DNA from: Fodinicurvata sediminis DSM 21159 | GTDB lineage: Bacteria; Pseudomonadota; Alphaproteobacteria; Kiloniellales; DSM-21159 | Reading direction: 5' to 3' | DNA length: 64,000 nucleotides | NCBI RefSeq assembly: GCF_000420625.1 | Contig: NZ_ATVH01000014.1 | Coordinates: forward strand, 310,001-374,000 | Shown here: positions 1-10,984 of the stretch, in pieces | How positions within the stretch are numbered: position 1 is the first letter of the stretch | Layout of the letters: each line of letters begins with the position of its first letter | The notes under the pieces: generated by a model | The model's database searches: none | What the model saw: the letters and a program-made list of their open reading frames with translations, nothing else | What the model was told of the DNA's origin: nothing | Made by a program: the position numbers and the translations under genes

Positions 1-391
1 CATTTTGTTCGGTTGCACTCTTCCACATAGCGCCATACCGGACTGAAACGCCCCCTGCTTCGATCATTATGTCCTCGGCAGGATGATCTTTTACTTCGAT
101 AGAAGCAATGAACGAGCGGACTCTGATCTTGGCTCCTAATATTCGATTACCTTCAGCATCATAAACCGTCCTAGTTGGAACTATATAGCGTGGCTTCCGG
201 AAGCACCCCACTACCACAACATCTAAGTCGCTAACTTTATGACCAGAAAGCTTAACTGCAGCAGCAATCTTAATATGATCCTCATCAGTCGAGGTAGTAT
301 CGATTTCAGGCCAGATGCCAACAAGCGCATCTTTTACTGTTAATGCAGACTCAAATTCTGCCGTTCCCTCGGGACCCAATATTTCAATCAT
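1..391 (-). CDS. Putative PD-(D/E)XK / NERD-like nuclease, N-terminal part only (cut by window edge)
   Basis: Only the first 130 codons are visible; the gene runs off the left edge. The ATG (391-389) overlaps the TGA of the helicase upstream (390-388) in an ATGA arrangement, so it is translationally coupled and belongs to the same operon. The translation begins MIEILGPEGTAEFESAL and contains a hydrophobic strand with an acid, DLDVVVVG (about residues 55-62), then, after a basic stretch, SFIASIEVKDH (about 93-103). An acidic residue followed by (I/V)E-V-K is the usual core of PD-(D/E)XK and NERD nuclease domains. Such domains often lead larger proteins that continue into a UvrD- or DEAD-type helicase, but nothing past residue 130 can be seen. 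The nuclease call rests on the motif alone. Base composition is AT-rich like the two genes before it. Confidence 0.5.
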   Translation of the reverse strand, partial: MIEILGPEGTAEFESALTVKDALVGIWPEIDTTSTDEDHIKIAAAVKLSGHKVSDLDVVVVGCFRKPRYIVPTRTVYDAEGNRILGAKIRVRSFIASIEVKDHPAEDIMIEAGGVSVRYGAMWKSATEQN

Positions 392-3300
392 GAGCGTAAT
401 CTCAAGAAATACGCAGCAGTTCGCGATGAGAATTCCCTTACATCCGCAAACTCTGCCTCTATCCCTTGATCAAGTCGCAGCTCATCGCGCGCTTCTAACT
501 GGCGCTCTTGGAGAAAACCAGGTCCAGTATGCCAAAGGGGGTGCCCCAAGATTAGAGCCCTATTCCCAGAAATAAGTGCCGGAAGCTCAGCGAAGTAGTG
601 GAGCGAAACATTCATTCCCGCATTTTGGCAAAAATCCAAGAATGCCCTCACAGATGAATCTTCCGCTCCGTCCAACCAGCGTGATTCATCAAGGGGGTTT
701 CCAAGAACGATATCAGCCATGTCCAAGGACAACCGCCAATCAAGCATTCCATGGCTAAACCTATTCCCGTAATTTCGTAAACAATCAGGACACGACCGAT
801 CACAATCCTTTGCATGTGCAGGGTCTTGCCATTTTGGAGCAACAGAGGCGTAAAACTTCTCTATCGCTGATCTCATATTCTTTGGATGTGCAGCCCAGCG
901 AGCATAACCTGCACCGTTCTCCAACGCATCCGCGACGAAAACTTGTTCCGTTTTGCAATCTCCTACAGCGAAAAATTGCCGGCCAACTCTGAATTCGCCT
1001 GGATCAACATCCAACGCCGTAGCCAATGAAAGCTTCAGGAACTCGGCAAATGAGGCGATTGCAGGCCGGGCCGAGGGTTGGCCGATTACGTCAAGCACGC
1101 CTTGCTTACCTATTTCTTCGGCGCCTGATATATGAAAACTCAGCACATCGGTCGTAAAAACAGCACCTATAGCTCCTTTATCGAAGGGTGTAGCAGCTGG
1201 GGCGTTATTCCAAGGCCCTGAATCTCGATAAAACCTCGGGTCACGAACCGAAACACGATCATGACTTTCTTGGAAGAACTCATATAAACTTCCCCCATTA
1301 TCATTAACTATAGCGACTGGCCCAACTCCTAAGGCAAGCTTCATAGGGCCGCAGCTCTCACCTCCATACTCCTGTTGGAACGCTCGTACGGGCGGGGGAA
1401 GTGCAGGTCCACGCTGCCTTTGACCATCATAATCCCGTGGCTTGCTGGACGAGAGGAATCCTCTGGGCTGGTAAAGCGGGAAAGGTTGTGATGGTTCCCT
1501 ACAAATCGAGCAAGTAGTATCCCCACCATGCGTTATGGTCGAGCAGCCGGGATTCGTACATCGGCTATAGAGCATGGGCTTTCCCAATGGTTCAGGCTCA
1601 TTATCAACACCCCTGTAGGTGTCCCGCTTAAACACAAAACCACAAGCAGTATGCAGGCGCTTATCTTTTGGAATTTCTGAGCCTGGCGCAAATGCCCAAA
1701 CTGCATGGTCAAGGGGGCGGTCACTTACAATAGCCTCCTCCACACTATTGCGACGCTCATCTTGAAAAAGGCTCCGCACTTGTGTCGGAAAACCGAACAT
1801 CGGCAATATCCCTCCAACCGCAAGCCGGTGACTTAATTCACCCTGTATGAAACGACCGTCTTCAACGATGGAGTCGATACGTTTGGGAAGCTCTTCTCTT
1901 ACGTAATTGGTAAGGCTTTCTTTTTCCCCGTTCAGTTTGGTGTAGGCAGCGAGACGGTTAACAACATGCTCAACTTCATCAGATGAAGAAAGCCAGTTAA
2001 CAACCCCATCACGAAATACTCCCTTCCATTGCTCGACACGTCCGAACACACCATGGATACTTTCTTCGTTTCTTTCAGGACCATAATCCAGATGGGCAAA
2101 TGCACGTCTTAAACACTCAGCAGATATAACTCTTTGTATAATTTCAGGTCTTGATAAATCAAGTTGGGGCTGAGGTGGCACATCTCCCGTCATTCGCTCG
2201 GGATTGTTGAAATAGTAATCATCGTGGGCCGCGCCACGTGAAATTGTTACCCCGTAGGAAAATGCTTGTCCTGCGCGGCCAGCACGGCCAACCCTTTGTT
2301 GGTAGTTAAAGCGCTGGGGTGGCATGTTTGCCATCATAACGAGCTTCAACGAACCAATATCGACTCCCACTTCCATTGTGGTTGTGACGGAAAGCGCGTC
2401 CAATCCATGAGTAAGTTCATTCTCGCCTTCCAGGTATGCGGTCGCTTTAAACAACCTCTGGCGACGCCTTTGCTCAGAGATCGGCTTTGTTTGCCCTGTC
2501 AGTTCTGCCACAGAAAGCCTATGGGCAGGTTCGCGAGATACCCAGTTATAGTAGTCTTCGCCAGCATTGCCAGCACGAGAAAAACTATTACTACGACAAT
2601 GTGGTGTTGTGCATACGTTAACTGGAAGTACCATTGTGAGCCTGGAACAACCGTCACAGCGGTATAGATCCCTCTGGCCGGCTGGAACAATGTGAAGCGG
2701 CAGGCTTGAATGGTTGTCGATTTTCAGGAACCAATTTTCTGTAATAATGTTCCGCTCGATGAGATAGTCACCTAGTGTACGTGCTAGCTCTGCACTTTCC
2801 CGGTTCACCAGAGGGGCGACTTTTTCAATGTACTTCTTGACCGCCGCTGGTACGGATGTGGTGGTCCGAGAGTGCCCCCATCCCATGAGATAGCGGCTAT
2901 GCCCGAGTATGCGAATGATATTCGCAACGATACCATTGGCTGTTGCGTCACCTAAGCCAAGCCTTGAGCCATGGGTTTCCTCCGCCTCGACTGTCGCTAT
3001 CCCCATTGACTCCATGTCGCGCCCTGCTCTGTCGAAGAGCGAATTCGCAACATGGACGGCAAAGCGGGCCATAAGCCTCCGACGTTCTTCCCTTGCAACA
3101 TCATCGGTGAGCGGGATCCATTCCCCTTCCACTGGAGGCATGAAGTACCGCCACCATGGCGTGCCGTCATCACCTTGGGCATAGCTTGCCTCTGTGCCAG
3201 CGGGATTCTGTCCGAGGCGCAGCAGTTCATCCCGCATGTTAACAAGTAATGAAGGCCAGCCTATTGCGTTGCTTGCAATGGACTGATCATGTTGAGCGAT

Positions 3301-5865
3301 TAGTTCCTTATCGGCTCGTTTTGCAGCGTTGAGCTTATTCAACTTCACTGCATTAAATATCCCGGGGGTCTTTTTCTCTGCCGCTTCATAGAGTTCGCGG
3401 AAAGACGCGTCCATTTCCGGATCAACATCAGCGTACATCTCAAGCTCGGCACTAGAAGGAATATTCTTCTGAGCAATCCCAATATATATTAGCTGGCGGA
3501 TGAGATCGCGGAAATGATGGAGCTCAAGTCCTGCCGCGAGGTCTGCCGCATCATCCCTGCTATCGGTGAAGGCAATCATTTTCTCGGCAGCGCCTGTATC
3601 GCTTGCTGCATGCATGACACGGTCAGCAACAAGCTGTGTCGTCACGTTAAGGCCTGTGCGCAACCCTCTAATAGGCGTCTGTACAGAGCCACTGAAGAAA
3701 GCTTTCTTTTCCCTATCATTGAAGAATTTCCTAGTACCCTCGCAACAAGGGCAAATCTCGGGCAAAGCAGCCACTTTCTCGGAGCCGCGCAGGTCACCAG
3801 AAACACAGAAGACCACACCCCCTTCATCTCCAGGGGCCAAAGCGCCAGAAAAAGGATCGAAATGGCCCTTCTGGAAGTGCATCGTCACCCTCTTTCCGGA
3901 TGGCGCCTCCCTTGACCACGAACTCGTTCCTGCTGGTAATTGCCCTCCCGGCCAGTACCAACGGAACTCATCTTGTGTCCGTTCGAATACCTGACTAACC
4001 TTACTACTACCTTCCCCAGATTTTGTTGCTTCTAGAAATATGCTTCCTGAAGGCATCCCCTCACTTTCCGGGACCACAAACCCCCCCATGAAAGCTTCAC
4101 CACAGTCATAACAATAAAGCAACTCAAGGACTTGGCCACCGCACTCACATTTGGTTGCTGGGGCCTTGAAAAGCCGGCCAATTTTTCGGTTAGAAGAGCG
4201 GTACTGCTCTTCTAACCCTGAACAATCAGGATTCGAACAAGCCCAGATACCTTGGACCTGCCTAAGAAACATATGGGATCGGAATGTAGGCTTAGGCTGC
4301 TCCCAAGTCCCCTTGGACTCGTATTTTACAGCAAGCAAAAATGCTTCAAGAAGGCCCCTAGTCGTATGGGAATCTTCACTGCCAAACAAAATACGGCTCA
4401 GGCAGCCAAGGTTGGAAGGCCTTATAATTTCAAAATTCTTGCCATTTGTAGGATCAAGGACCTCGGTCTTTCCTGCAATATTACAAGCTACCGCCAAAGC
4501 CTCCCGTGGAGAATAATGGTTTGAAATTTCTGATAACACCGTATTTATTGTATCGTCCCCTCCATTTAATAATGCGTCCTTATGTTTGGTGATCACATTA
4601 GAATCTATGGGTAGGGAAACGTCGAATTCTCTAGGTGCCCCTGTAAATATGGCAAACGTTTCTTTTGGAACACCAAAAAACTGCTCAAGATACTCTCGCC
4701 CTGCTTCCCCATCCAAAGACGCACTAGTCGCAATACAACGCAGTTGGGGTGAGCTCGGTTCCAAGCCTAAGCGGTCGAGCAAATTGCGAACGACGAGAGC
4801 AACTTCTGAACCTTGCGTACCGCGATAACTGTGCAGCTCATCAACAACTATTGAGAATGTATTAGATCTGTCAGACTCAAGCCAAGCACGTGTCTTCTCA
4901 AATATCGGAGATTCTACATCACGCATAAGCATGATATTCATCATACTTGTATTTGTAATTAAAATATCTGGTGGCGCGGCAATCATATCCCAGCGTGTCA
5001 GCATCTCACCAATTTCCGGGTCTTGGAATTGGCTGCAAATTTCAAGAATATCTTTGGTGTCCTTCCCTTCTGCCCCCATGGTCCGCCAAACGTCTGCCAC
5101 TTCATTTGCTATTTTTTTAACTTCGTAACCAACATCATTTATTCTTTTGCGATCCTTGGCAGACAATGTAAGGGGAGGTACGTAAGTCGAACCGATAGTG
5201 GCACCTGTGTATCTTCCGAAATAGAAAAGCGGCTTTCCAAAAATACTCACCGCCCTTGAAGCAGCTTGACGGAGGCGCGATACCTGATCTTCCACTAGAG
5301 CGTTTGTTGGATAGAGGATCATTGCCCTAACAGCAGGAGGCACTGTATCTTCCATATGGACTCTAGAGTGGTACCACTCTTTGTCTTTTGAGCTGAATTC
5401 TTCTTCCCACCAACGGTTTAACTCACCGCTACCAACTCCGCCGCTGCGTTCTTGTAGGAGCGTAGCTAATAGAGGAAGCAAGAAACTTTCAGTTTTTCCT
5501 GAACCGGTACCAGATGTGACCACAGCATTCTGGTACACTTTATCGCCAATGCTTGCCTTTAATGCCTGCGCTTGATGCTGGCGGAGTTTAATTCCTTCCT
5601 CGGCTCCGAAAACGACCTTGGCAAGATTGCTAACTACAAACTCGCTTAAGCCAATGTCCCTACAAACTTCCTCAAGGGAGTCAGTCGATGGATACTGAGG
5701 CACGGCCTCAAGCAATGGCTCTTGAGCCATAACACCAGGGGAGTTCAAGATTTCACGGCGTTCAGCCATGATGGCTGGATCACGCATCCAGAAGGCGCTG
5801 TCATAGTAGCGCCTGTAACCTTCGCTGATATATTCATATACACTAATTGGATTTGCTTGCGACAT
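388..5865 (-). CDS. Giant DEAD/DEAH helicase with DUF1998-type C-terminus, DruE-like
   Basis: A protein of 1825 aa if it starts at the ATG at 5865 (MSQANPISVYEY); an in-frame TTG 16 codons upstream is less likely. Visible motifs: Walker A GTGSGKT (about 119-125), a DELH Walker B box (about 342-345), motif III-like ATSAS (about 379), and helicase motif VI QRVGRAGRAG (about 1190). Zinc-type Cys pairs lie near 543-588, 705 and 1070-1090. A CDRSCPDCLRN signature (about 1688-1697) is typical of DUF1998. Size and layout match DruE, the common component of Druantia anti-phage systems; DISARM DrmA and DrmB are separate, smaller proteins. The start overlaps the end of the 997-aa gene by 23 nt, and the stop overlaps the next gene. 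Its role would be ATP-driven nucleic acid remodelling in phage defence; this is inferred from family and context. The gene appears intact. Confidence 0.8.
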   Translation of the reverse strand: MSQANPISVYEYISEGYRRYYDSAFWMRDPAIMAERREILNSPGVMAQEPLLEAVPQYPSTDSLEEVCRDIGLSEFVVSNLAKVVFGAEEGIKLRQHQAQALKASIGDKVYQNAVVTSGTGSGKTESFLLPLLATLLQERSGGVGSGELNRWWEEEFSSKDKEWYHSRVHMEDTVPPAVRAMILYPTNALVEDQVSRLRQAASRAVSIFGKPLFYFGRYTGATIGSTYVPPLTLSAKDRKRINDVGYEVKKIANEVADVWRTMGAEGKDTKDILEICSQFQDPEIGEMLTRWDMIAAPPDILITNTSMMNIMLMRDVESPIFEKTRAWLESDRSNTFSIVVDELHSYRGTQGSEVALVVRNLLDRLGLEPSSPQLRCIATSASLDGEAGREYLEQFFGVPKETFAIFTGAPREFDVSLPIDSNVITKHKDALLNGGDDTINTVLSEISNHYSPREALAVACNIAGKTEVLDPTNGKNFEIIRPSNLGCLSRILFGSEDSHTTRGLLEAFLLAVKYESKGTWEQPKPTFRSHMFLRQVQGIWACSNPDCSGLEEQYRSSNRKIGRLFKAPATKCECGGQVLELLYCYDCGEAFMGGFVVPESEGMPSGSIFLEATKSGEGSSKVSQVFERTQDEFRWYWPGGQLPAGTSSWSREAPSGKRVTMHFQKGHFDPFSGALAPGDEGGVVFCVSGDLRGSEKVAALPEICPCCEGTRKFFNDREKKAFFSGSVQTPIRGLRTGLNVTTQLVADRVMHAASDTGAAEKMIAFTDSRDDAADLAAGLELHHFRDLIRQLIYIGIAQKNIPSSAELEMYADVDPEMDASFRELYEAAEKKTPGIFNAVKLNKLNAAKRADKELIAQHDQSIASNAIGWPSLLVNMRDELLRLGQNPAGTEASYAQGDDGTPWWRYFMPPVEGEWIPLTDDVAREERRRLMARFAVHVANSLFDRAGRDMESMGIATVEAEETHGSRLGLGDATANGIVANIIRILGHSRYLMGWGHSRTTTSVPAAVKKYIEKVAPLVNRESAELARTLGDYLIERNIITENWFLKIDNHSSLPLHIVPAGQRDLYRCDGCSRLTMVLPVNVCTTPHCRSNSFSRAGNAGEDYYNWVSREPAHRLSVAELTGQTKPISEQRRRQRLFKATAYLEGENELTHGLDALSVTTTMEVGVDIGSLKLVMMANMPPQRFNYQQRVGRAGRAGQAFSYGVTISRGAAHDDYYFNNPERMTGDVPPQPQLDLSRPEIIQRVISAECLRRAFAHLDYGPERNEESIHGVFGRVEQWKGVFRDGVVNWLSSSDEVEHVVNRLAAYTKLNGEKESLTNYVREELPKRIDSIVEDGRFIQGELSHRLAVGGILPMFGFPTQVRSLFQDERRNSVEEAIVSDRPLDHAVWAFAPGSEIPKDKRLHTACGFVFKRDTYRGVDNEPEPLGKPMLYSRCTNPGCSTITHGGDTTCSICREPSQPFPLYQPRGFLSSSKPRDYDGQRQRGPALPPPVRAFQQEYGGESCGPMKLALGVGPVAIVNDNGGSLYEFFQESHDRVSVRDPRFYRDSGPWNNAPAATPFDKGAIGAVFTTDVLSFHISGAEEIGKQGVLDVIGQPSARPAIASFAEFLKLSLATALDVDPGEFRVGRQFFAVGDCKTEQVFVADALENGAGYARWAAHPKNMRSAIEKFYASVAPKWQDPAHAKDCDRSCPDCLRNYGNRFSHGMLDWRLSLDMADIVLGNPLDESRWLDGAEDSSVRAFLDFCQNAGMNVSLHYFAELPALISGNRALILGHPLWHTGPGFLQERQLEARDELRLDQGIEAEFADVREFSSRTAAYFLRLRS

Positions 5866-8836
5866 GCGTATCACCGGCCTTCCCGTACAGGATTTCCATA
5901 ACTTGTCCCGCAACTAATGGGGCAACATTTTCATACATTAACACGCCATTGCGAGCCTCCGGCAATGTGCCGGAACATGCTACTAGGGCACGTCCCAAAA
6001 GCCCTGGAACATCACACCCCAATGTCGCTTTTACCTTGTAACTCGATCGGTCATAAGCGTGCAGACGAATATTCTCCCGCTTTGCAGCTAACAACTTGAC
6101 GACCTGATACGGCCCGCGCCACATCTTCCCATCCGGAGACAAATAAGCGTAATTCTGAACCCCATCATTCCAACGATATGCACCAGATGACTGTGCATCC
6201 TTTACCGTGTTCCAGCGCCCGGATTTTGGATTGAAAGCTTCTAAACTGTTTGCGTGACCGATAGAGACTGGTGAAAGGCACTCCGAAAGTCCCCCAAGAG
6301 CCAGACATGCGGTAGCAATCGAATAGCCAGGATAATCGACAATCGATAGATTTCGCCCTAGGGGGTCTTGGATATCGCTCAAAACCTTTGTTGCTTCTTC
6401 GAATCTAACACCCTCAAGAACAACCATTGACGGTCTACCTGCCATTCTTGTTTTGTTGAGAGTGCCCCCTATTTCTTTCACGGCTCCCCTAATAACCTCG
6501 GTTAGTTGGGCGTTGCGGAATCCTGACAGGAAAGCTCTTTCCTGATCGATAAAGTTGATCGCTAGCGGGGGAACAGACCAACGTCTTACATAGTTTGTTC
6601 CATGCCTTAGCTCCAAATCGAGAAAGCCAAGAAGGAAAAGGTCTTGCGCCAATGAGCGCGCCCTCCATGGTGTATACCCTCCTTCCGGGAGGAGAGCCTC
6701 GAATGCACCCCATGACCCACATCCTAAGAAGCACAAAGCATCCAGTAACAGGTCATGGTCAATTGGCTGTAATTCCTGCTGTGCCTTAGGCCTGTAGCGC
6801 GGAGCCTCCCTAGCTGCCGCTTTCGATTGTGCTGAACGTTTTCCTCGATCAACAACTATAAGCGATTGATTGCAATCCTTGCACTCTTGCTTTAAGGGAG
6901 CTTTCTTGGGCAAGCCAGGTTTAGGCGGTTCGCAAATCCAATAATGGTAACCTCTTGAGACGCAGGTTTCCCTGTCACTATACAAATCTATAGAACCTTG
7001 AAGTTCAGCAGCTTGACCGGTTTCAGAATATCCCTCCGGAAGGTGATGTCCTTCCTCTAGGGTAGTTGGCGGTTGATGAAGAGGCAATTCGCCATGAACT
7101 ATTGTGCCGATTATTATTACAATATTTTTCGTTATTTCTGAATTAGTTGCGCTTAATATTGTATTATAGAAAACTAGTTCATCACTATAACGATTGAGAG
7201 GGCGAGGAGTACTTGAGTCGCGGAAAAGTATTTCCTGGCTAGCAACAAGCTTACCATTTCTATACCCTTTAAAGCCAATAACACTCCCAGGTTCATTTGA
7301 ATTCGCTGGAAGGGTAAGCTCGCAATTCCCTCCATTATTACTAGCCATAGATATTAAGGCATCTCTGGTAGCGCCTTCTAATGAAAATGCCTCTATTTCA
7401 GTAGGTCCTTCCGAAGCAATCAAACTAATGTCCACCCTTGAACTTGAATGAAAAATTCCATAACTAAGACGCAAGTGGCCATTAACAATCATTGTACCTT
7501 CGCCCCCTAGTGGGGCGAGACACGCCAGGTCCTTGGACGGCGAATACTGTGCTTCCCCAAAAACGGCACCCTTATAGAGAACCCAACCTGTCGGCACACC
7601 TTGCAACTCATCGGAAGTCGCAACACTCGGCATCTCGAGGGCCGCCTCATTGAGATACTGTTCCACCTTTTTCGTCATGCTCTTAATATCACGCACAAGA
7701 ATTAGGTGGGGCCGGCCAAGCACTACTCGGGAGACCTCAATCCAGTAGTGTCCTCTCGTACTCTCAGCAAAAGGAATGACAAGCCGGGGATGCCATTCCA
7801 ATAACTCCCCTCTGTTGCCTGAGAAAATAAAGCCATGTGTTAGCATCCTCCCATCTGTACCCAGAGGTCTAGGATTTATGGTCGAGAATGTCCCATAATG
7901 ATCGTTAGACAAATTGAAGTACTGCGAATTCCCTTCTACTTTTAGTGGCCCCAAGGGCTCATTAAGTTCGCCCGGCCTACCCAACTGGATATCTAATACT
8001 TCATTAGGAAAGCGGGGGATAAATTGGGCCGCCAAACAAAGTTTGACCTTTCTCGAACCATCAGTTGGCATGCTACCAGTGCTATTCTCATTTTGCCCCC
8101 AGGCAGACAATTCAGCGATTGCAGCTTCACAAACCCGCCCTTGGAGTTCCTTTCTTCGCCACGCAGCCTTCAACCGGGCATTGGCGTAACTAGTTCGCAT
8201 CCAATGCTCAAGATAGTAACGAATTTCCTCCGTTGAGATTTCCTCAGTTCCAGAAAACCCATACCGCTCGAACATATCATGGAATAATTCCCTATCACCC
8301 GCACGCACAACAACTTGTGAAAGAGCTTTTCCTACGTATTTCCAAGAATTAATCGCTTGAGCAGTCGGTCGACCAAAATCGAAGTTATTTTTAATAAGCC
8401 AACTATTTAGGTAACTCCACAATATTTCCGTGGATTTACCGTGAAAAGATAAACGCCCCCGTTCAATTCCAGTCAATTGAGCAAGGCGTACATAATAATT
8501 GTTTGCGGCATACTGGCCTTCGGCAGCCATATGGGCAGCAGCATGCGAAAGGCAAAAAAGGACGGCAGTGAAAGGAGGGGGCTCTGAGCTAGATGAGTGC
8601 CACCAACTCTTAGCTTGTTGTATTATTGCCTGATAAGGATCACCGGTCGTCTGCAACTTACGACCAACAGTGTGACAAATATAGCTTTCAACTGCATCCT
8701 CGTCCTTACCCAACGCTTCGGCTAGTTCGTGCCTCATACGATTGTTTAGGGAAAGGAATACCGCCCGACTGGAAAAATTTCCCGAAAAGAATATCCGGTT
8801 AAGGAGATAATTAACCTTCGCGTATTCTTCAGACAA
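5843..8836 (-). CDS. 997-aa protein of unknown fold, possible DruH-like Druantia component
   Basis: No catalytic motif was recognised. The start appears to be a TTG (TTG TCT GAA GAA) preceded by an AGGTGT Shine-Dalgarno-like sequence; the nearest upstream ATG is followed by a stop. The N-terminal 250 residues look mostly helical. The middle (about 260-600) looks beta-rich. Four cysteines at about 625, 635, 652 and 655 (the last pair as CKDC) could form a zinc ribbon. A basic stretch follows (about 664-685), and the C-terminal 300 residues resemble winged-helix and beta segments. In type III Druantia a large protein of unknown function, DruH, precedes DruE; position and length fit, but homology cannot be tested here. 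It is the first gene of an operon with the helicase and the nuclease-like gene, overlapping the helicase start. It is AT-rich, like the rest of the island. Confidence 0.7.
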   Translation of the reverse strand: MSEEYAKVNYLLNRIFFSGNFSSRAVFLSLNNRMRHELAEALGKDEDAVESYICHTVGRKLQTTGDPYQAIIQQAKSWWHSSSSEPPPFTAVLFCLSHAAAHMAAEGQYAANNYYVRLAQLTGIERGRLSFHGKSTEILWSYLNSWLIKNNFDFGRPTAQAINSWKYVGKALSQVVVRAGDRELFHDMFERYGFSGTEEISTEEIRYYLEHWMRTSYANARLKAAWRRKELQGRVCEAAIAELSAWGQNENSTGSMPTDGSRKVKLCLAAQFIPRFPNEVLDIQLGRPGELNEPLGPLKVEGNSQYFNLSNDHYGTFSTINPRPLGTDGRMLTHGFIFSGNRGELLEWHPRLVIPFAESTRGHYWIEVSRVVLGRPHLILVRDIKSMTKKVEQYLNEAALEMPSVATSDELQGVPTGWVLYKGAVFGEAQYSPSKDLACLAPLGGEGTMIVNGHLRLSYGIFHSSSRVDISLIASEGPTEIEAFSLEGATRDALISMASNNGGNCELTLPANSNEPGSVIGFKGYRNGKLVASQEILFRDSSTPRPLNRYSDELVFYNTILSATNSEITKNIVIIIGTIVHGELPLHQPPTTLEEGHHLPEGYSETGQAAELQGSIDLYSDRETCVSRGYHYWICEPPKPGLPKKAPLKQECKDCNQSLIVVDRGKRSAQSKAAAREAPRYRPKAQQELQPIDHDLLLDALCFLGCGSWGAFEALLPEGGYTPWRARSLAQDLFLLGFLDLELRHGTNYVRRWSVPPLAINFIDQERAFLSGFRNAQLTEVIRGAVKEIGGTLNKTRMAGRPSMVVLEGVRFEEATKVLSDIQDPLGRNLSIVDYPGYSIATACLALGGLSECLSPVSIGHANSLEAFNPKSGRWNTVKDAQSSGAYRWNDGVQNYAYLSPDGKMWRGPYQVVKLLAAKRENIRLHAYDRSSYKVKATLGCDVPGLLGRALVACSGTLPEARNGVLMYENVAPLVAGQVMEILYGKAGDTHVASKSN

Positions 8837-9108
8837 ATTACACCTAAATATCCATTTTACTTCTACATTATATTTTTGTATTTAATTTGGGCGCGACAAT
8901 GCAAATCCGTTGCGTATTTTACCAAAATCCGAGAAGGCAGCATAGTGCGCCTGAACTCCTTTGTGAGTACCACCTCTAGTTTCCACACGCGTAAAGTGAT
9001 TTGCAACCCTTAAGCATGCAACCACACGCAACCTACTCTAAATCGGGTCAAACATATCGAAATGGGGGTAGGCCATAGGATTGAATGCTGAATATCATCG
9101 AATTGCAT
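8837..9108 (-). promoter_or_regulatory. AT-rich leader of the defence operon with a -10-like box
   Basis: This spacer precedes the TTG start of the 997-aa gene. Reading leftward there is a perfect TATAAT (8872-8867) in a very AT-rich stretch about 30 bp from the start codon. No convincing -35 box lies 16-18 bp upstream of it. The remaining part, toward 9108, shows no gene or repeat that I recognise. Confidence 0.35.
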
Positions 9109-9321
9109 CTAGATTGGCTCCCGAAAGAACTGCGGATCATCGCCGAACCACTGCCCGAAACGCAGGGCAGCGTCGCTGGTAACCGCATGCTTGCCAGCGA
9201 TTATCTGGGAAACGTGGCTTGGCGGCACGTCAATCTGGCGCGCAAACTCCATTGGAGTGAGGCCGAGTTCCTCCAGCTCATTCTTGAGGACGATCCCGGG
9301 ATGCACAGCTCTCACGAACAT
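9109..9321 (-). pseudogene. HigA-family antitoxin, C-terminally truncated, no adjacent toxin
   Basis: The 70-aa product starts MFVRAVHPGIVLKNELEELG and carries an XRE-type helix-turn-helix (about residues 20-58) with the family signature HPGxxLxxEL. In intact HigA proteins the stretch corresponding to FGDDPQFF is followed by about 25 further residues (an NLQxxYDL-like helix). Here the frame stops eight residues later at TAG, although the downstream bases still resemble that segment (ATG CAA TTC GAT). This suggests a small deletion or frameshift. No HigB or RelE gene lies on either side: upstream is the tRNA-Arg and downstream is the defence operon leader. It may be a decayed toxin-antitoxin remnant or an orphan repressor. 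The ATG at 9321 starts the conserved region; a longer frame reaches 9405 but adds unrelated sequence. Confidence 0.6.
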
Positions 9322-9451
9322 GCGACGGTCTCCACCAAGCGTGTGAACCCGGAACAGTATCTTATGGAGACACAGGGGTGGGGACACAAAAACAGTCCAG
9401 TTCATCGACTGGTAGTCCCTGCCTTCAATCCACTGATTTTTCTGAAGAAAA

Positions 9452-9528
9452 TGGCGCGCCCGGGAAGATTCGAACTCCCAACCTCCTGATCCGTAGTCAG
9501 GTGCTCTATCCAGTTGAGCTACGGGCGC
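9452..9528 (-). tRNA. tRNA-Arg(ACG)
   Basis: A complete 77-nt cloverleaf on the minus strand. The acceptor stem GCGCCCG pairs with CGGGCGC, CCA is encoded at the 3' end (9454-9452), the T-loop reads GTTCGAATC, and the anticodon loop CTACGGA gives anticodon ACG. Its 3' end faces the AT-rich defence island, the usual arrangement when an element has integrated at the 3' part of a tRNA gene. Confidence 0.95.
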
Positions 9529-9901
9529 TTGCTGTCCGCGTGATATCTGGGGGACAGACCCGACCGACCGCGTGCGGGCCTGTCGTCGTCGGGATGCGCG
9601 TGTCTAACAAAAGGACGGGGGGCGGACAAGCCGCTTATTGAAGATTTTTTGCAGCCCTGCCCTGCACCCCACAACCCAGGGGTCGGTGACGCCGGAGGGC
9701 CACAGCCGGCCGCTTTCCTGCAGCACACGGATTCAAAAGGGGAAATCAGTCTTGTTCCGCTTGATTCCTTAAAGTACCATCAGCGCACCTTTCGGGGAGG
9801 CGTCCGCGCGTCCACCCGCACTGTCTAGGGTCGCATGAAGGCAGGCAGTCGTGTGCGACGGACGGCAACAAAATGCCAGGGGTTCGGGGTTGAATTAAAA
9901 C
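9529..9901. other. Intergenic region between tRNA-Arg and the lipoprotein gene
   Basis: About 370 bp. It must hold the leftward tRNA promoter and the rightward promoter of the lipoprotein gene, but I see no strong -35/-10 pair for either. No ORF with family resemblance and no repeat was found. Composition switches here from the AT-rich island to the GC-rich core. Confidence 0.5.
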
Positions 9902-10984
9902 ATGTCTTTTTTCCAAGGTCGCATTATCGGCGCCGTCAGCGCGCTGTTCCTGATCGCCGGATGCACGACGCCAGGCGGCGATCCTGGATCACAAACCGGC
10001 GGGGGCAGCGTCCAGAGCCCCCTGATTCTGGGAACCGGGACGTTCGAGCCCGAGGGCGTGCCGTCCTTCCAATCCACGGGCACCGACGTGGGCGGGCGCG
10101 TTCAGTCGCTGCGCGAGGACCTGGTCGATATCCAGGACCAGCTGCGCAGCGAGAACGAAACCCTGCAGGCGCAGCGGCAGCAATCGCGCGAATCGGCACA
10201 GAGCTATCATGCGCTGAAAAGCGACATCAACGCGAAGCTGCAGGTGGGCACCACCCCCGGCAATCCGCGCCTGGTCTCGCAATGGAACCAGGCCCAGAGC
10301 GAACTGGCCCAGGTGGACCAGAGCATCCAGCAGATGAATTCCCTGTCCAGCGAGGTGTCCTCCACCGCTAGCCAGACCGGCTACCTGCTGGACTCCATCC
10401 GCTCCACCTTCGGGCTGTCCGGCGCCGTGGACGAAGACCACGCCCACCTGACGGTGCTGGAGGATGCGGCCAACCAGACCGCCGTCCTGGTGGACCGCCT
10501 GGACAGCGAGCTGACCGAGGACATCCAGCGCCAGACCGCCTATCTCTCGACCGAGCGGTCCAACCTGAACGCCCTGTCGGTGGCCATCGAAAACGGCCAA
10601 TCCACCGGCGTCAGCCTGTCGAACCGCATCTACGGCCAGGCCTCGGCGCCGCCCCCCGGCGGTGCATCCAGCCGCCTGGGCCAGGAGCGGCCGCTGGCCA
10701 TCATTACCTTCCAGAACGAGAACACACGCTACGAGCCTCAACTCTACAACGCCGTGAACCAGGTGCTGGAGCGCCGGCCCAACGCCGGCTTCGACGTGCT
10801 GGCCGTGGCGCCCCAGGGCAACAGCGAAGGCGAAAGCGCGCTGGCCACCAACCGCACCCGGCGTGACGGTGAACGCGTCATGCGCTCGCTGGCCTCCATG
10901 GGCCTGCCGGCCGCGCGCCTGTCCCTTTCGGCCACCAGCTCGCCACTGGTCAGCAACGGGGAAGTGCACGTCTACGTGCGCTGA
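9902..10984 (+). CDS. Coiled-coil lipoprotein with OmpA-like C-terminal domain
   Basis: A 360-aa predicted outer-membrane or periplasmic lipoprotein. The signal peptide (residues 1-20) ends in the lipobox LIAG before Cys21. Residues about 55-230 are rich in Q, E, S and L with heptad-like spacing, which suggests a long coiled coil. The last 100 residues have the order of an OmpA/MotB peptidoglycan-binding fold: an ITF strand, a helix over VNQVLERRP, a VLAVAPQG strand, then TRRDGERVMRSLASMGLPAARL. The latter resembles the usual RAxxVxxYLxxxGI...R helix. A structural link between outer membrane and cell wall is likely by family; the exact role is unknown. It lies next to gpt and a convergent PBP1A gene. 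Confidence 0.65.
   Translation: MSFFQGRIIGAVSALFLIAGCTTPGGDPGSQTGGGSVQSPLILGTGTFEPEGVPSFQSTGTDVGGRVQSLREDLVDIQDQLRSENETLQAQRQQSRESAQSYHALKSDINAKLQVGTTPGNPRLVSQWNQAQSELAQVDQSIQQMNSLSSEVSSTASQTGYLLDSIRSTFGLSGAVDEDHAHLTVLEDAANQTAVLVDRLDSELTEDIQRQTAYLSTERSNLNALSVAIENGQSTGVSLSNRIYGQASAPPPGGASSRLGQERPLAIITFQNENTRYEPQLYNAVNQVLERRPNAGFDVLAVAPQGNSEGESALATNRTRRDGERVMRSLASMGLPAARLSLSATSSPLVSNGEVHVYVR

Follow-up and report, generated by a model that had tools for sequence, protein, structure and literature searches.

A recurrent gene for a predicted nuclease-helicase follows druE in a Druantia type II/IV-like operon of Fodinicurvata sediminis

The 64,000-nucleotide (nt) stretch of the Fodinicurvata sediminis DSM 21159 genome (Pseudomonadota, Alphaproteobacteria) studied here, positions 310,001 to 374,000 of contig NZ_ATVH01000014.1 (G000:C14:310001-374000 in our collection, G000 being its own genome; hereafter the window), opens with a three-gene operon that, judged by profile scores, is a Druantia locus of type II/IV-like kind. 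Behind its druF-like and druE-like genes lies a third gene, whose product of 658 amino acids (aa) is a UvrD-like helicase with a predicted nuclease domain at its N-terminus. This nuclease-helicase is a recurrent component of such operons, and no description of a NERD/UvrD-type gene as a Druantia component was found in the literature searched, which comprised parts of papers only and is no proof of absence. We propose, with a probability of roughly 0.6, that the operon is a Druantia type II/IV-like variant in which the co-inherited nuclease-helicase would do the cutting in trans. The three genes are arranged as follows.

5843..8836, minus strand: druF-like gene, 997 aa, TTG start (PADLOC profiles)
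388..5865, minus strand: druE-like gene for a YprA/MrfA-type superfamily 2 (SF2) helicase with a DUF1998/MZB module, 1825 aa from the ATG at 5865 (PADLOC, Pfam)
1..391, minus strand: start of the third gene (130 codons of the 658-aa nuclease-helicase), which continues left to G000:C14:308415 (whole gene 8415-10391 in locus L003)

An earlier note on this DNA had described three overlapping frames on the minus strand, and these are present: druF and druE overlap by 23 nt (5843-5865), druE and the third gene by the four letters ATGA (388-391). The helicase frame, 388-5913, is open to a TTG at 5913 (1841 aa), and the ATG at 5865, which gives 1825 aa, adjoins the alignment start (query residue 17) of the two closest plasmid relatives of the helicase. 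From 391 the third gene runs past the left edge of the window; extending the contig to the left, as the note had advised, completed it on the same contig. The three-gene arrangement is not due to chance, since the same gene order is seen again in other genomes, and the third gene, coupled as the note had it, is also conserved. Many homologous operons carry this gene, though not all, against the possibility raised in the note that they never do.

The assignment to Druantia is based on PADLOC profiles, which match both the helicase and the 997-aa protein and agree with the defence-type operon that the note had supposed. The helicase scores 1431 bits with DruE2 (residues 21-1840), 1296 with DruE4, 594 with DruE1 and 362 with the best DruE3 model; Pfam adds DEAD and Helicase_C, while MZB was matched in one search and stayed below the cut-off in the Pfam scan. 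The 997-aa protein matches DruF2 (PDLC00023) with 340 bits over residues 4-983 and DruF4 with 109 bits, and its C-terminal third matches DruL4 with 41.6 bits over residues 732-984. Since two adjacent DruF-profile genes replace the one elsewhere (e.g. L073, L076, L078), the gene is probably a DruF-DruL fusion. It had no Pfam or NCBIfam match at E 0.1, and a comparison of its fold with the PDB gave nothing at or below E 0.001; in a second look at its structure an Ig-like stretch of residues 444-541 tops the list (Z 9.0, root mean square deviation (rmsd) 2.6, 85 residues aligned), from which, the other parts being barely tested, we draw no function.

These scores overturn the assignment to type III, with DruH and DruE, that the note had made: the DruE and DruF profiles rule out that type, and no DruH model matches the 997-aa protein at E 0.01, although DruH models do match six of six comparison loci. 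DruG found no match among the six island proteins searched with all PADLOC models, and a single DruG model (PDLC00024) tried on the rest of the genome gave none either, a weak negative in that the same model matched no control genome. DruG was also considered, and rejected, as the identity of the third gene, which matches no PADLOC DruG model (the one looked at has 939 positions). In the PADLOC scheme, as given in PMC8565338, DruM and DruG are required for type II, and DruL takes their place in type IV. Here DruE4 and DruF4 score below the type II models, the DruL4-like region (42 bits) is fused to DruF and is not a separate gene, and a C5 cytosine methyltransferase encoded convergently to the operon scores 204 bits with DruM2 and 269 bits with a generic type II model. 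By its profile matches the locus is therefore best described as Druantia of type II/IV-like (DruF-DruE) kind, without DruH or DruG, which shows some but not all of the marks of either type.

The third protein, which the note had called a nuclease from its N-terminus, is about two thirds UvrD-like superfamily 1 (SF1) helicase, so that the nuclease-like N-terminus stands and the name nuclease alone does not. In its AlphaFold model (predicted local distance difference test 92, predicted template modelling score 0.88), residues 239-658 match UvrD 4c2t_A (Z 27.8, rmsd 3.5, 366 residues aligned), UvrD-like proteins also appear in the Foldseek list, and the residues of Walker A and B are conserved throughout the 70 sequences aligned. 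Schlafen matches of the model had an rmsd above 15 and were not used. At the N-terminus, E99 and K101 are present in all 70 sequences, D57 in 69 (one gap) and E12 in 63 (six gaps, one N). The first 157 residues of the model form a helix (11-26), three strands (38-47, 55-64, 93-101), a helix (126-145) and a strand (152-157), with extra short strands between and after them, an order that fits the helix-strand-strand-strand-helix-strand core of PD-(D/E)xK enzymes. Motif and element order together predict a PD-(D/E)xK nuclease-like domain. Among PADLOC models only weak matches limited to the helicase part were obtained (C3a187 "NERD+UvrD" 5.5e-10, GajB 4.5e-7, and a weak one to Nhi).

A profile scan of a species-genome collection, which the tool describes as 84,980 genomes, returned 119 relatives of the third protein; the best 80, the window locus and four others make up the 85 loci that we tabulated, where the labels type I-like and DruF-type come from our own profiles and PADLOC was run on the window, L029, L031 and selected neighbours. 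The flank of the third gene also encodes DruE in 61 of the 85. In each of the 26 type I-like loci DruE stands just before the third gene (7 overlapping, the others 3-76 nt apart). Among the 35 DruF-type loci this order is found in 23, while 11 have the third gene first with DruE 3.0-6.8 kb further on, and one has it on the opposite strand 3 kb away. By longest-ORF (open reading frame) starts, 18 of these 23 overlap, four lie within 19 nt and one, the broken copy L049, is 500 nt apart; the exact 4-nt overlap of the window recurs in 14 of the 23. Cut or short pieces aside, no DruE of the set scored type III-like: with the type I profile, type III helicases reach 512-558 bits, against at least 2516 for full-length type I and at least 1172 for DruF-type proteins longer than 1500 aa. 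Furthermore, six relatives of the third protein were found on viral contigs, four of them inside Druantia cassettes.

The history of the third gene follows that of its neighbours. In DruF-type loci, mirror distances (Mantel correlations) give r 0.968 for the third protein and DruE (n=21), 0.947 for the third protein and DruF (n=19) and 0.927 for DruE and DruF (n=19); in type I-like loci the third protein reaches 0.967 with DruE, 0.941 with DruD and 0.956 with the product of a ~950-aa gene (n=19), for which "DruBC" is our own label (one copy tested, no PADLOC match). For each of these pairs, none of 2000 permutations was as high. The methyltransferase of the same DruF-type loci, taken as a control, gave r 0.344 (n=14), with 110 of 2000 permutations as high. 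A quick tree, built from 68 third proteins, keeps those of type I and those of DruF-type loci largely apart (10 changes among six labels, against a shuffled mean of 39.2). As distances match within the trio and not with the methyltransferase, the trio behaves as one inherited unit, and we judge the cytosine methyltransferase to be an exchangeable neighbour and not a core part. The third gene is not a chance passenger.

In the mechanism that we propose, DruF with its DruL-like end would sense infection or regulate, DruE would load on phage DNA intermediates and open them, and the third protein, through its SF1 helicase and N-terminal PD-(D/E)xK-like nuclease, would take the exposed strand and cut or degrade it. 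We infer from the above that the operon acts against phage, that its products interact physically, that the third protein is active as a nuclease and that the steps follow in this order. On the simplest reading, the third protein would supply in trans, coupled to unwinding by DruE, the nuclease thought to be lacking in DruE of types I and II, whose tail has been described as a nuclease rendered inactive. PMC12458937 reports a terminal Vsr domain, predicted to be inactivated, for these two types and an active PLD for type III; according to PMC13192584, type III DruE is a helicase-nuclease acting on intermediates that contain single-stranded DNA, with DruH the likely sensor. In our alignment, 51 DruE tails held no D...(D/E)xK motif discernible by eye, 12 of 63 sequences having been dropped for want of the anchor motif, including all three type III tails (L135, L136, L141).

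Several findings weigh against this reading, foremost those of a survey that starts from DruE. Matches to the DruE2 profile came from 10 genomes in a set of 398 from the phylum and from 8 in a set of 385 from the class; together these are 15 distinct genomes, whose surroundings were all tabulated. The third gene follows DruE in two of three scorable type I genomes (G452 and G577, not G462; G612 ends inside DruE), in one of four DruF-type genomes, the positive being the window itself so that the other three lack it, and in none of six type III genomes, all of which have a DruH match; G687 was left without a type. Of the three other DruF-type genomes, G382 has a different NERD-UvrD protein after DruE (Pfam NERD 8.8e-9, PADLOC RTasNERD-Hel 1.3e-34, only 37 bits with the third-gene profile), G436 has DruK, a PD-(D/E)xK protein, and G779 a ParB-like gene about 600 nt on. 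By locus, such genes lie at L133 15343-16956 (NERD-UvrD), L132 11798-12919 (DruK) and L138 6312-7427 (ParB/PD-Lambda-5_A-like). Of 13 plasmid records in which a DruE match covers 80% or more of the query, two carry the third gene. Six of the other 11 were examined: a co-directional nuclease-type gene comes after DruE on the plasmids of Deinococcus (NERD, at a distance of 640 nt), Agrobacterium (Vsr) and Roseomonas (DUF262 and HEPN), and on none of those of Nostoc, Calothrix and Rhizobium. Nitrosococcus watsonii has a type I-like cassette without the third gene. The third gene is hence facultative, and there are Druantia systems that lack it or have a different partner. That many DruE loci are without this gene, the main weakness of our proposal, means that another nuclease fills the role there or that the role is not essential.

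The survey from the third gene has its own weak points. Among the best 80 of the 119 scan relatives, 56 have DruE in the flank, a share that is biased upward because the query was built from DruE-linked copies and only the best were kept. DruE is missing from the flank in 24 of the 85 loci, nine of which have less than 1.6 kb upstream, and among the 398 genomes sampled from the phylum a match to the third protein was obtained in 13, and at full length in only two, G000 and G452. The alignment of DruE tails held no type III DruE as a positive control. Likewise, the nuclease assignment rests on a motif and on element order in a predicted model, the structure comparison having covered mainly residues 224-658 and barely tested the N-terminal part. 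Pfam NERD (PF08378) is not reached by the third protein of the window and is reached by three of 68 relatives (best E 8.8e-4), and a profile comparison of the N-terminus with two NERD sequences failed; a NERD label for this protein is weak.

One alternative sees in the third gene a defence gene in its own right, a helicase-nuclease akin to Nhi or Gabija, which travels beside Druantia and acts alone. The many DruE loci without it, the weak GajB and Nhi profile matches and the 24 loci without DruE, among them L111 with a sigma-factor-like gene and a DpdF-like helicase and L110 with a DrmA-like helicase, all speak for such independence. Yet in loci where it follows DruE the gene is co-directional with it and close or overlapping, its distances match those of DruE and DruF and not those of the methyltransferase, and even in L110 and L111 it again stands beside a large helicase gene, which makes this explanation unlikely in our view.

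The locus could also be a restriction-modification (R-M)-like unit, in which the convergent, DruM-like C5 methyltransferase marks self and the trio cuts unmarked DNA. A C5 methyltransferase of at least 330 aa is present in the flank of 14 of 21 DruF-type loci, a fifteenth (L042) being cut by the locus end, and canonical type II includes DruM according to part of PMC13316683. We nevertheless hold this to be improbable: the methyltransferase distances do not track the trio, and no methyltransferase was found in the flank of six of the 21 DruF-type loci or of any of the 26 type I-like loci. Restriction genes of MvaI-like kind were matched in nine of the 85 loci, in eight of them near the methyltransferase (L075 holds an 88-aa piece), which may thus be part of an R-M unit of its own; in L038, the remaining locus, the match is a fragment at a contig end and no methyltransferase was found. 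The window's own locus is not among the matches.

That the third protein is a regulator or a host-protecting repair factor, for instance one that clears DNA ends made by DruE, would suit the frequent roles of UvrD-type helicases in repair and the existence of Druantia loci without it, but it is quite doubtful given the E99 and K101 kept in 70 of 70 copies and the other co-directional nuclease-type genes after DruE in six of nine non-type-III, non-type-I loci lacking the third gene (three genomes and six plasmids, a loose count that takes in ParB-like and DUF262 proteins).

Returning to the proposal that the third protein is the nuclease acting in trans, these replacements admit a wider reading, which we offer tentatively and at somewhat below even odds. 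Druantia I and II/IV-like systems may be modular: DruE would have lost its own nuclease, and the position downstream would be an exchangeable nuclease slot, filled by the nuclease-helicase described here, by an unrelated NERD-UvrD protein, or by DruK-type PD-(D/E)xK, Vsr, ParB/DUF262- and HEPN-type proteins, whereas type III keeps a fused nuclease and would have no slot.

Further observations concern the loci of the survey. Four IMG/VR contigs classed as viral (L160-L163) carry Druantia cassettes with the third gene, complete or nearly so in the stretch covered. In L111 (9992-16309, Bacillota), a locus without DruE, a relative of the third gene comes before a gene that is both sigma-70-like and MzaA-like and before a DpdF-like helicase (C3a193), and is possibly part of another system using the same nuclease-helicase; L098, L104 and L112 resemble it by gene sizes, and L105 and L109 have a ~355-aa gene before the third gene, profiles having been run on L111 only. 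In L110 (2-7249) a contig-end relative is followed by a 770-aa unknown and the DrmA-like helicase. In two type I-like loci (L054 11974-15594, L055 12113-15720) a long DruA-like gene (about 680 aa, own profile) adjoins a ~515-aa gene, which is a GHKL/HSP90-type ATPase by Pfam in L054 and was judged alike in L055 from its first residues. On a Sinorhizobium medicae plasmid (L030 11940-18740, type I-like), DruE is in pieces split by an IS3-family transposase gene, and the third gene is shortened C-terminally.

The AT-rich block beside a tRNA that the note had seen is confirmed, with 48.5% GC in 1-8836 against 64.4% in 9530-64000. It is part of an island spanning about L003 6397-18836, which has 46.9% GC against 64-66% in its flanks. 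The other features of this region are listed here, with those of the corresponding site in the sister genome G001.

9452..9528, minus strand: tRNA-Arg (ACG), which borders the AT-rich island
L003 6855-8351, left of the window, convergent to the operon: C5 cytosine methyltransferase gene, 498 aa
L003 6397-6840, left of the window, convergent to the operon: vsr gene, 147 aa
L152 3106-7713 and L152 10188 to L153 7346: contents of the tRNA-Arg site of G001

G001 has the same genes on either side and, between them, a prophage- or satellite-like element at tRNA-Arg (integrase, DUF927, portal, capsid, terminase) and, separately, an AT-rich 1535-aa helicase gene with a weak nuclease-domain match. From this one sister genome compared, the tRNA-Arg site may be an insertion hotspot. 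No integration-scar repeats of at least 15 nt touching the tRNA were found at the far end of the island, and promoter and terminator scans stayed at shuffled background and are not used. Between operon and tRNA, a small ORF (9109-9405, minus strand) matches the HigA antitoxin family (59 bits, above cut-off).

By what means types I and II destroy the DNA of phages seems unsettled: the table of a 2026 review (PMC12904381) leaves the restriction mechanism of Druantia blank. A conserved, co-inherited nuclease-helicase beside DruE is a candidate for the missing activity where it is present. In lineages that have the third gene, Druantia cassettes may be incomplete if cloned without what follows DruE. 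Annotation tools would gain a component, as PADLOC-DB 2.0.0 showed no dedicated match for the third protein.

Compared with known systems, the third protein shares its helicase superfamily and a nuclease-helicase architecture with Nhi, GajB of Gabija and the PADLOC NERD+UvrD candidate C3a187, but matches them weakly and in the helicase part alone. TALON also pairs a YprA helicase with a nuclease gene, there a separate one of NERD type; it is described in PMC12458937 with TPR-CSD and TBP genes and in Bacillati, whereas Pfam found neither TPR-CSD nor TBP among the six island proteins. ArmD of ARMADA type II, a GajB-like helicase with a RelE-like domain encoded after a YprA helicase, is likewise a UvrD/GajB-like helicase with an N-terminal nuclease-type domain beside a YprA-family helicase, yet the N-terminal domain in the window is PD-(D/E)xK-like and not RelE-like, and neither BrxHII nor PglX was identified among the six island proteins scanned. 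With Druantia type III (DruH-DruE) the operon has a DruE-family helicase in common, but it has no DruH, its helicase is not DruE3, and the third gene is absent from the six type III genomes examined. As to type I (DruA-DruB-DruC-DruD-DruE), a relative of the third gene stands immediately behind DruE in the 26 type I-like loci of the set examined; the window has DruF in place of DruA and DruD. Most alike are types II (DruM-DruF-DruG-DruE) and IV (DruE-DruF-DruL), with which the window shares a DruE2-type helicase, DruF, a DruL-like end on DruF and a nearby C5 methyltransferase; it differs from them in that no DruG was found, DruF and DruL are probably fused, the methyltransferase is convergent and does not co-evolve with the trio, and an extra nuclease-helicase follows DruE.

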